Below are positions 20,714 to 26,361 of a stretch of 64,000 nucleotides of DNA, one piece after another. The stretch lies in contig JAFGKT010000080.1 in assembly GCA_016928435.1 (NCBI GenBank), forward strand, positions 1 to 64,000. The letters are read 5' to 3'. Under the pieces are notes generated by a model. The model was not told the origin of the DNA and did no database searches. It saw nothing but the letters and a program-made list of their open reading frames with translations. Source of the stretch: Sedimentisphaerales bacterium (GTDB taxonomy: Bacteria > Planctomycetota > Phycisphaerae > Sedimentisphaerales > SM23-30). The translations under genes and the position numbers were made by a program. The first letter of the stretch is position 1; each line of letters starts with the position of its first letter.

Positions 20714-20728
20714 TGGCACACGCATTGC
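20714..20728 (+). promoter_or_regulatory. Sigma-54 (-24/-12) promoter
   Basis: TGGCAC-ACGCA-TTGC matches the consensus TGGCAC-N5-TTGC, about 60 nt before ATG 20787. Confidence 0.75.
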
Positions 20729-20786: not shown

Positions 20787-21056
20787 ATGTTTTTTGAAGA
20801 ACCATTATCAGGTTCGCAGGTTCGGTTTCGCTTAGCCAGCGCGGCCTGTCCGGATGCCAAAGCGATCGTCGATAAAATAACCGATCAGCTCGATGTAACC
20901 GGCAAGGTACTCTACCTGAGCGATTCCGGGGACCAGAAATCGCACTTTGCGATAGTCGATGTTCCAGGCATTATGTCGCCTGTGGTTGTGCCGGTCGATC
21001 GTGTTCAATTGTGTCACGAGTCTGCCGGAGAAGTAAAGACTGAGACGCAGAAATAA
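20787..21056 (+). CDS. Small hypothetical protein (89 aa)
   Basis: First ORF downstream of the sigma-54 promoter; preceded by a purine-rich cGGAGTTGGAAA stretch. Confidence 0.6.
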   Translation: MFFEEPLSGSQVRFRLASAACPDAKAIVDKITDQLDVTGKVLYLSDSGDQKSHFAIVDVPGIMSPVVVPVDRVQLCHESAGEVKTETQK

Positions 21057-21176: not shown

Positions 21177-21260
21177 GCTCTCTCTCTCCCTCCCAGGCTT
21201 GCCAGTTCTCCCCGAATTGATAAGTCTGGGAACTTGAAATCATTCGGTCGAAAGACCGTT
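21177..21260 (+). ncRNA. Structured repeat element copy A
   Basis: GCTCTCTCTCTCCCTCCCAGGCTT...AGTTC-TCCCC-GAATT...AAGTCTGGGAACTTGA + CGGTC-GAAA-GACCG hairpin. Confidence 0.7.
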
Positions 21261-21493
21261 ATATAAATATCGGCGATGTTGAGAGTGTTTGAGACATTAA
21301 TCTAGATTGGAGTGCGAAACGCACTTTTTCTTGATTTACACTATTGGGTTTCATAGCGGAAGTGCATATTTTGACGTTCAACACTGCGAAAGTTGACTTG
21401 GAGAAATATAAGAGAAATTCAGCAATAATATCCTTTGGCGGCAACGTCCTATGTCAAGCATTTCGGAGGAAAAGAGAAGCTGCACAGGACGTA

Positions 21494-21579
21494 TTCTCTC
21501 TCTGAATCCCAGACGAGACACCTTTGTGACAGACTAGATAAGTCTGGGAAACAACGATAAAACGGCTAAGTAAACCGTT
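21494..21579 (+). ncRNA. Structured repeat element copy B (divergent)
   Basis: TTCTCTCTCTGAATCCCAGAC...GTCTGGGAAAC + AACGG...CCGTT hairpin. Confidence 0.55.
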
Positions 21580-21644
21580 CAAAAATAGAATATTAATAAT
21601 CAACATTGATAGTTTTTAAGCCTGAATAAAAATGGAATAATTTT

Positions 21645-21728
21645 GCTCTCTCTCTCCCTCCCAGACTGACCAGTTCTCCCCGAGCTGATAAGTCTGGGAA
21701 CTTGAGTTCAATCGACCTTGTGGTCGTT
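21645..21728 (+). ncRNA. Structured repeat element copy C
   Basis: GCTCTCTCTCTCCCTCCCAGACT...AGTTC-TCCCC-GAGCT...AGTCTGGGAACTTGA + CGACC-TTGT-GGTCG. Confidence 0.7.
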
Positions 21729-21809
21729 AATAAATAAGTAGGCAAAGGAAGCAACGAAGAGAATCACGGCAAAAAAAGCCTATACTGGTAATTGATAGCG
21801 AGCTTTCAA

Positions 21810-22052
21810 ATGAAGGAATCAATTGCGGTTTGTATAGTAGCGTTGATGTTTCTGACGCTTGGCAGTTCGCTACACGCGAACGCCGCTGATCTTAAAATTG
21901 TATCAAACCATGGTGATCGGTCTTCTGACAGTATTCAGACCGCGGAGTTTAGCACATCAGCTCCCGCAACCATCGCCCTGGTACCAGAGCCGGCAACCAT
22001 AGTTCTACTCGGCTGCGGCGGATTTCTTCTGCTGCCCCGCAAGCAGAACTAA
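21810..22052 (+). CDS. Mini PEP-CTERM sorting-domain protein (about 80 aa)
   Basis: Signal peptide-like N-terminus (MKESIAVCIVALMFLTLGSSLHANA) and C-terminal VPEPATIVLLGCGGFLLLPRKQN. ORF opens at 21792 (TTG); ATG 21810 is preferred. Confidence 0.8.
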   Translation: MKESIAVCIVALMFLTLGSSLHANAADLKIVSNHGDRSSDSIQTAEFSTSAPATIALVPEPATIVLLGCGGFLLLPRKQN

Positions 22053-22192
22053 ACTCTAAAACAGCCGTGAAATCGCCCCAAAGCGAAAAAACCAATAAGG
22101 TACGACCATTTGTAAAACCAATATTGTGGACGACGTAGATTTTAGACTAGACAATTAATAAGGAATACAGGTAAAAGTAAATAGAATAATTT

Positions 22193-22275
22193 GCTCTCTC
22201 TCTCCCTCCCAGGCTTACCGGTTCTCCCCGAATTGATGAGTCTGGGAACTTGAGTGAAACCGGCCTGACCAGCCG
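22193..22275 (+). ncRNA. Structured repeat element copy D
   Basis: GCTCTCTCTCTCCCTCCCAGGCT...GGTTC-TCCCC-GAATT...AGTCTGGGAACTTGA + CGGC...GCCG. Confidence 0.7.
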
Positions 22276-22334
22276 ATCAAACATAGAAGCAAAGTGAGGA
22301 GTTCAGAAGAATCGGTTTCATACCGTATTATTTT

Positions 22335-22416
22335 GCTCTCTCTCTCACTCCCAGGCTTGGGTAGTTCTCCCCGAATTGTCCTGCCTGGGACCTAAAAATG
22401 TCAGCCGTTAAGGCTG
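22335..22416 (+). ncRNA. Structured repeat element copy E
   Basis: GCTCTCTCTCTCACTCCCAGGC...AGTTC-TCCCC-GAATT...GCCTGGGACC + CAGCC-GTTAA-GGCTG. Confidence 0.7.
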
Positions 22417-22426
22417 CTAATAGGTC

Positions 22427-22465
22427 AAGGTTGTTGGTCTCTTAAGAGGCTGACAACCTTTTTTT
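22427..22465 (+). terminator. Strong intrinsic terminator closing the element/PEP-CTERM unit
   Basis: AAGGTTGTTGGTCTC-TTAA-GAGGCTGACAACCTT (about 15 bp, including G-U pairs) followed by T-run. Confidence 0.9.
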
Positions 22466-22484
22466 GTAGGCGTTCATGGTAATG

Positions 22485-24927: not shown

Positions 24928-26361
24928 CTAGTGGATATTGTACTTCTCGAGCTTGTTGTAGAGAGTGCGACGCGTAACCCCTAGTCGCTCAGCTAAAGTA
25001 GTACGATTGAGCCCCCGGGCGACAAGTCTTTCGAGAACGACTTTCTCGCAGTGGTCGAGTACATCGTTGAGATGTTTTCGGCCTTCAAACAACGATTCAA
25101 TAAACTGATCGGAAATTTCTATGGCGCTGCCCTCGGCGCCGGCCTGCAACTGCGATTGAATAATAGCAGGAGGCAAATCGGAAATTTCTATTGGTCCCGA
25201 CTGTTCTTTGAAAACCAGTATCTGCCTAACAATGTTTTCCAACTCCCGAACATTACCGCTACCTATAGTGCGGCCCAGCAATTCATAAACGGCAGGCTCG
25301 ACACCATCGATTCGTACAGAACTGTAGTGAGCGTATTTCTTCAAGAAGAAATCAAACAGCAAAGGAATATCCCCACTTCGCTGCCTTAACGAAGGCACAT
25401 CAAGCTGAATCACATTGAGCCGTTGGAAAAGATCCAATCGGAACTTGCCTTGCTCGACCATACTCTGCAAATCGCGGTTACTCGCGGCGATAATACGAAC
25501 ATCAATACGATATTCGCGATCACTGCCCACAGGCAATACCAATCCCTCCTGCAGCACACGCAAAATCTTCGGTTGCAGCGGCAGATCAAGTTCACTGACT
25601 TCATCCAATAGAATCGTACCGCCGTCCGCTGAACGGAAGTAACCCGGACGACTTTCCGTCGCGCCTGTAAAAGCACCCTTACAGTGGCCAAACAGCTCGC
25701 TTTCCGCCAAGCTGCCGCTGATCGCTGCGCAGTTCACCGAAATAAACGGTTTGCTACCACGTTTTCTATCCCAATGATGAATCGCCTCAGCGAAACGCTG
25801 TTTGCCTGTACCGGATTCACCGAATATGATAACCGGCGCATCCGAAACGGCGGCGGCCCTTCTCGCCTGCGACACCACATGAGCCAAGGCTGTGCTTTGA
25901 CCAACCAGTCCTTGCTCAGTCAAGTCTTTCTCTTCCACTTGCTTGTGCCTGCCGTACTGTTCAAAGGCGTAATTCAACGCTTCTGAAGCCTTTGCCGCTA
26001 GAGTTTCGAGGTAGTTCTCGGCTGCGCCATTCACTATAGAACAAACCCCCGCGACCACAACCTGGCAACTCTGGGTCAACGTCAAAGGTGCCGGAACCAC
26101 CAATATCGATTGAGCGAAGGGTTGTTCGGTCCGCAAAAGACGTATGAAGTCCGTAACGCCTTGAAGGTCGCCGGTGTCTGACAGCGCCAAGACCACCAGC
26201 GCAAAAGACTGTTGATCTAACAACCGTGACAGTTCATCCAGACCGTCTGCGACAGCGGCTTTCTGCCCCAATTGAGTCAACACGTTACAGATTGGGCCCT
26301 TCATGTCGGCATTGCCTGTATATACAGCAACACCGCAATCAGGAGTGATTGGTTTACGCAA
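24928..26361 (-). CDS. Sigma-54-dependent enhancer-binding regulator with degenerate receiver
   Basis: GESGTGKQRFAEAIHHWD Walker A, ESELFGHCKGAFTGATESRPGYF (GAFTGA), Fis-type HTH; TTG start. Confidence 0.93.
   Translation of the reverse strand: MRKPITPDCGVAVYTGNADMKGPICNVLTQLGQKAAVADGLDELSRLLDQQSFALVVLALSDTGDLQGVTDFIRLLRTEQPFAQSILVVPAPLTLTQSCQVVVAGVCSIVNGAAENYLETLAAKASEALNYAFEQYGRHKQVEEKDLTEQGLVGQSTALAHVVSQARRAAAVSDAPVIIFGESGTGKQRFAEAIHHWDRKRGSKPFISVNCAAISGSLAESELFGHCKGAFTGATESRPGYFRSADGGTILLDEVSELDLPLQPKILRVLQEGLVLPVGSDREYRIDVRIIAASNRDLQSMVEQGKFRLDLFQRLNVIQLDVPSLRQRSGDIPLLFDFFLKKYAHYSSVRIDGVEPAVYELLGRTIGSGNVRELENIVRQILVFKEQSGPIEISDLPPAIIQSQLQAGAEGSAIEISDQFIESLFEGRKHLNDVLDHCEKVVLERLVARGLNRTTLAERLGVTRRTLYNKLEKYNIH

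Follow-up and report, generated by a model that had tools for sequence, protein, structure and literature searches.

Conserved arrays of a structured RNA family behind a sigma-54 promoter and a small-protein gene in Phycisphaerae

Five structured elements on contig JAFGKT010000080.1 of a Sedimentisphaerales bacterium (positions 1 to 64,000, the 64,000-nucleotide stretch referred to here as the window) are members of an RNA family absent from Rfam and belong to a larger conserved arrangement, i.e. an operon in which a sigma-54 promoter is followed by a small protein of approximately 90 amino acids, one to five RNA units and a terminator. The family occurs in 16% of the sampled genomes of the class Phycisphaerae and is tied to both sigma-54 and a new small-protein family. 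These arrays are likely to give rise to a set of small regulatory RNAs (sRNAs) that is apparently undescribed, their expression being inferred; the literature searched yielded no publication on sRNAs from this class.

RNA units and their structure

All five units of the window lie on the forward strand. Unit A (21177–21260) comprises a CU tract, an outer/inner hairpin and a second hairpin (21245–21258), and a terminator-like hairpin with a U tract, supported by a consensus match only, is found 3' of it (21309–21331, forward strand). Units C (21645–21728), D (22193–22277) and E (22335–22418, the last copy of the array) were delimited by folding and a covariance model, and the divergent unit B (21493–21579; 55.7 bits, with B itself in the model) retains the tract and the outer-stem sequence with the inner hairpin gone. 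The general order within a unit is a pyrimidine tract (typically GCUCUCUCUCUCCCUCC), an outer stem CCCAGGC/GCCUGGG, a variable inner hairpin, a short linker, a second short hairpin and a spacer that leads into the next tract and contains A/U, often ACAUAG. Units A, C, D and E fold 4.2–5.4 s.d. below dinucleotide shuffles, whereas unit B folds only weakly (z = -1.7), with a minimum free energy structure that lacks the outer stem even though CCCAGAC/GTCTGGG is present. Covariance model E-values for the five units ranged from 1e-10 to 1e-18, units A–E being included in the model, and relatives left out of model building were matched as well (G004, 6e-8; G001, 5e-5). E-values from such home-made models are rough.

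A first-pass annotation, made without database searches, had described five dispersed copies sharing one layout. The common layout held, with B as the divergent copy, and so did the 5' tract, outer stem, inner hairpin and downstream hairpins as described (except that the inner hairpin is absent from B), the GGGAACUUGA linker in A, C and D, and the statement that the element matches no known family. The term 'dispersed' did not hold: the copies form a single array within one operon starting near position 20714. Its inclusion of a downstream hairpin in each copy held only in part, as the second hairpin sits between units and its assignment to the preceding or following one remains open. The annotation had missed the sigma-54 promoter, the small-protein gene, the terminator formed by terminal copies and the conservation across the class. 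The covariance model that it proposed was built and searched, and relatives were found across Phycisphaerae.

Support for a selected RNA structure came from an alignment of 67 distinct copies, in which pairing was kept in 91.8% of cells and compensatory changes on both sides were seen in 17 of 18 pairs (228 cells, compared with 75 in shuffles). The covariation score of these copies was 0.420, against 0.140 for shuffled alignments; sliding the partner gave 0.061 or less. This alignment had been fitted to the structure, and the test was therefore repeated on a MAFFT alignment that had not; RNAalifold recovered the same hairpin from it, and 11 of its 14 pairs showed compensation. The basal stem pair varies between C-G, G-C, A-U and U-A. 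Copies within one array are not independent of each other. Rfam 15, searched at gathering and relaxed thresholds, returned no family match, and below-threshold scores were at chance level.

Every unit carries an unpaired pyrimidine tract, typically CUCUCUCUCUCCCUCC, ahead of the hairpin, and this tract is more constant than the stems. Its constancy is partly built in, as the DNA pattern used for one of our searches selected for the tract (L051–L087); among copies found without the pattern (families f12, f14 and f18), the tract was still pyrimidine-rich but varied in sequence.

Short hairpins in several copies, the last of which are terminators, could in principle also stem from a simple repeat at the DNA level, from a mobile element (REP/MITE-like) or from a set of repeated terminators that do nothing else. 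We consider this very unlikely. The element shows no genome spread, all five matches in the 3.07-Mb metagenome-assembled genome (MAG) being confined to the one locus; its orientation is fixed, as is its position 3' of one class of gene; and the stems show compensatory changes while an unpaired tract is conserved across a class. The first-pass claim that the element is an RNA under selection and not a DNA repeat is thus supported by the compensatory changes and the covariation, and no mobile spread was seen.

The operon and its small protein

The array of the window is preceded by a sigma-54 (-24/-12) promoter, TGGCAC-ACGCA-TTGC (20714–20728, forward strand), upstream of a small open reading frame (20787–21056, forward strand). 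A sigma-54 box was present upstream of the small ORF in all 23 loci scanned, with approximately 0.06 expected per 200 nt. At 25 of the 38 loci recovered by the DNA pattern (37 contigs plus one viral contig), a homologue of this ORF ends a short distance 5' of the array. Among 398 Phycisphaerae genomes, the small protein was detected in 33, all of which also have the RNA (Fisher p = 2e-30), and for 34 of 35 small-protein genes the RNA lay 8–369 nt downstream on the same strand. Conversely, 32 of the 65 RNA-positive genomes had no detectable small protein. A sample of 297 genomes from the phylum gave one protein match outside the class (locus L193, genome G573); this locus has a sigma-54-like box and other short repeats downstream (CAGATCTCCTGAGC...), and no CU RNA was found there.

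The 89-amino-acid protein represents a new family with a number of invariant or near-invariant residues (F, CP, G, SD.G, V, G, P and VP). AlphaFold2 predicted an SH3-like small beta barrel with moderate confidence (pLDDT 75), and Foldseek against the PDB retrieved only SH3, Tudor, KOW and chromobarrel domains, none of them significant (best E 0.08). Searches of Pfam, NCBIfam, PHROG and PADLOC with the protein gave no match and PDB sequences nothing convincing, and 27 homologues compared with Pfam gave only weak, unrelated matches and no DUF1127. Nucleic-acid binding by this protein is plausible but only inferred; the fold is predicted by a model and its match is weak. A type III toxin–antitoxin system was also entertained and dropped, since no toxin family matches the protein and the RNA lies on the 3' side of its gene.

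The array of the window ends in a strong intrinsic terminator with a 15-bp stem and U7 (22427–22467, forward strand) at the end of unit E; here and in some relatives the terminator is separate from the last unit. Outside the family to which the window belongs, the hairpin of the last unit doubles as the transcription terminator: in these other families a U-run followed the last copy in 25 of 29 arrays, while 3 of the 27 inner copies had one (p = 2e-8).

Two further genes of the window deserve mention. A sigma-54 activator with an AAA+ domain, a Fis-type helix–turn–helix and a degenerate receiver-like N-terminus is encoded on the reverse strand (24928–26361), and at 14 other loci a homologous gene sits immediately upstream of the small ORF. 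An optional element, a gene for a small exported protein of PEP-CTERM type (21810–22052, forward strand; TIGR02595, 17.2 bits, cut-off 16), occupies the space from unit C to unit D. PEP-CTERM genes often occur beside the arrays in both Sedimentisphaerales families, although no chance rate was computed for this. At nine loci (L052, L059, L064, L066, L074 and L084 among them), the array was seen to have a gene for a GbsR/MarR-like regulator downstream of it.

Distribution, solitary copies and a sister RNA class

With BLASTN, five further genomes of the window's family gave homologues, whereas those sampled from the rest of the order gave none. A model built from 13 copies (R1) matched 9 of 13 genomes of the family, the window's own among them. 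One hit, L030 (genome G007, E 0.003), was discarded as a chance match. One DNA pattern compared with all 85,462 GTDB species matched 37 contigs, 34 of which carry the label of Planctomycetota, of Phycisphaerae or of one of the orders of that class. Two others, one labelled only 'bacterium' (L060) and the other 'Alphaproteobacteria' (L054), have the same small ORF upstream. The latter, a Phycisphaerae-type operon under an alphaproteobacterial label, probably reflects mislabelling or mis-binning of a MAG contig. Matches in Methylobacterium and in a viral contig (L076 and L088) were rejected as chance occurrences of the pattern. A second model, R2, was built from 69 copies; of the 398 Phycisphaerae genomes sampled with it, 65 (16%) carry the element, and these fall into eight families. 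Nearly all of the genomes are MAGs, and counts of presence are lower bounds.

Copies in family f11 are mostly solitary, with the hairpin serving as terminator. A sigma-70-like promoter (TTGnnn-N16/17-TACGAT or TATAAT) was found 75–92 nt upstream in 7 of the 11 solitary copies checked, mostly from f11, and these seven meet the criterion for a trans-acting sRNA, namely a promoter of its own together with a Rho-independent terminator; units in arrays share a promoter. Solitary, short CU-tract/terminator RNAs of f11 with TTGAAG or TTGCAG-N16/17-TACGAT were seen at L114, L115, L122, L123, L125 and L126. Because solitary copies have promoters of their own, a single unit is sufficient to make up an sRNA gene, and these copies probably represent free-standing sRNA genes, an inference drawn from sequence alone.

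A sister class of the RNA is found in family f7, which belongs to the same order as the window, where model R3 matched 17 of 162 genomes. Its tandem units (L043:4500–5630, L194–L238) contain a tract reading CUCUCUCCUCUUCUUC or CUUCUCCUCCUU, a stem GCUGGG/CCCAGC and a second hairpin, and some of the tracts include CUCCUCCUU, the core of the 16S anti-Shine–Dalgarno (anti-SD) sequence. These units lie near a stand-alone receiver-like protein of 124–158 amino acids, upstream of which most loci have a sigma-54 box, and the f7 activator has no N-terminal receiver-like domain in four loci (L224, L232, L235 and L236). What stays constant is the RNA array together with sigma-54; the protein is exchangeable. 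The degenerate receiver-like N-terminus of activators in the window's family and others shows weak profile similarity to the stand-alone f7 protein (E 4e-4). At L228 and L234 (genomes G082 and G081), f7-type units lie approximately 100 nt upstream of successive genes for PEP-CTERM or exported proteins, and a cis role is possible there.

Possible mode of action and comparison with known systems

Our preferred explanation, which we hold to be the best available and somewhat more likely than not, is that the operon transcript is cut into an array of sRNAs whose CU tracts pair with purine-rich ribosome-binding sites. It rests on the composition, exposure and constancy of the tract, on the terminator formed by the terminal copy and on the existence of solitary, sRNA-like copies; expression, processing and targets are inferred. 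In such a scheme, the sigma-54 activator would turn on the single promoter, yielding a transcript of the small-protein gene followed by the array of RNA units. Cleavage by a ribonuclease would fall in the short stretches that separate the hairpins of one unit from those of the next (in other families typically ACAUAG) and would release sRNAs of approximately 80–100 nt with an exposed 5' CU tract and a 3' hairpin cap. Pairing of this tract with the purine-rich Shine–Dalgarno regions of target mRNAs would then lower translation, the several units providing a high dosage. The small protein, with its predicted SH3-like barrel, may assist in the processing or presentation of these RNAs where no Hfq was detected, and the likely outputs would include exported PEP-CTERM proteins, often encoded beside the arrays in the window's order.

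No Hfq was detected in any of the 13 family genomes searched, while control genomes were positive. CsrA is encoded in 12 of these 13 genomes, and together with the multiple hairpins and a GGGA beside the stem in several copies this could suggest an RNA that sequesters CsrA. We regard such a role as very unlikely, since GGA is absent from the hairpin loops, so that the criterion of a repeated loop ANGGA is not met, and the GGGA is not kept, other copies having CUGGC, CUGGU or CUGGA at the stem base.

The pairing hypothesis was weighed against the 49 translation starts of the window, at which reversed or shuffled tracts scored equally, the affinity thus reflecting CU composition. Near-perfect long complements of the tract were no commoner than those of a reversed control, and no specific target emerged. 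Target specificity is therefore not shown, and a protein-binding role stays the main rival. Under this alternative, which remains possible, the units would be binding sites for the small protein or another CU-binding protein, and the array would titrate that protein or autoregulate the operon (a sponge or feedback). The strict co-occurrence and adjacency of protein and RNA, a tract far more constant than the stems, an SH3-like fold compatible with nucleic-acid binding and the lack of a strong specific mRNA target all speak for it. Against it, a detectable protein is missing from 32 of the 65 RNA-positive genomes, and in f7 a receiver-domain protein replaces the small protein.

A further alternative is that the units are cis-acting mRNA elements that control stability, processing or translation on a polycistronic sigma-54 transcript also carrying PEP-CTERM genes. 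In favour of this, unit C lies approximately 80 nt before the PEP-CTERM ORF, the units in G081 and G082 precede successive exported-protein genes, and separate terminators end some arrays of family f1. We find it unlikely, however, as many arrays terminate without a downstream gene on the transcript and solitary copies have their own promoter and terminator.

Returning to the sRNA reading, its closest parallel is the CcaF1–CcsR operon of Rhodobacter sphaeroides, in which a gene for a small RNA-binding protein is followed by four homologous sRNAs, with an alternative-sigma promoter, a 3' terminator and processing by RNase E (PMC10253847). In the related ar14/cuckoo RNAs, an ultraconserved anti-SD motif is set among divergent stems and silences mRNAs via base pairing (PMC10746234). 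As in the CcaF1–CcsR1–4 and CIN1 cuckoo loci (including ar14/NfeR1), the layout seen in our sequences combines a small-protein gene, several homologous sRNA units and a 3' terminator in what is inferred to be one transcription unit. A pyrimidine-rich, anti-SD-like motif in unpaired regions, stems that differ and an alternative-sigma promoter are also shared. Membership in the cuckoo/CcsR family can nevertheless be ruled out, as the motif, its position, the protein family and the sigma factor all differ. The planctomycete tract, CUCUCUCUCUCCCUCC, lies 5' of the stem, whereas the cuckoo motif is CCUCCUCCC in unpaired hairpin regions; the planctomycete protein lacks the DUF1127 of CIN1 loci; and the promoter is a sigma-54 box rather than one for RpoHI/HII. 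The hosts are Planctomycetota and not Alphaproteobacteria, the RNA fold differs and there is no sequence match. A design of small protein plus anti-SD array is thereby suggested to have had more than one origin. In a bolder reading, which we put forward tentatively and would not yet back over its negation, the operon is a class-wide, Hfq-independent riboregulatory module whose sigma-54-driven transcript would yield a new, small SH3-like RNA-binding protein and a multi-copy anti-SD sRNA array, convergent with CcaF1–CcsR and with its protein partner exchanged for a receiver domain in the sister family. The arrays offer a test of sRNA action in genomes without detectable Hfq.

A second parallel is provided by Vibrio, where Qrr1–5 are near-redundant sRNAs under the control of sigma-54 and an NtrC-type activator (LuxO), one of them being encoded beside the activator; the Qrr genes are individually promoted and Hfq-dependent. 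Five Qrr sRNAs are described for V. harveyi. Multiple similar RNA units, sigma-54 with an activator and an adjacent activator gene are common to both systems, but the planctomycete units form a single operon array behind a protein gene, Hfq was not found and the sequences are unrelated.

With respect to possible outputs, an RpoN-dependent PEP-CTERM gene has been reported from a floc-former (PMC9850573), and the PrsK/PrsR–RpoN control of PEP-CTERM genes is not known to involve an RNA element. The arrays resemble that system in being under sigma-54 and, in the window's order, in having PEP-CTERM genes close by; a difference is that the activator of the window scores below the TIGR02915 cut-off (246 compared with 502.6).
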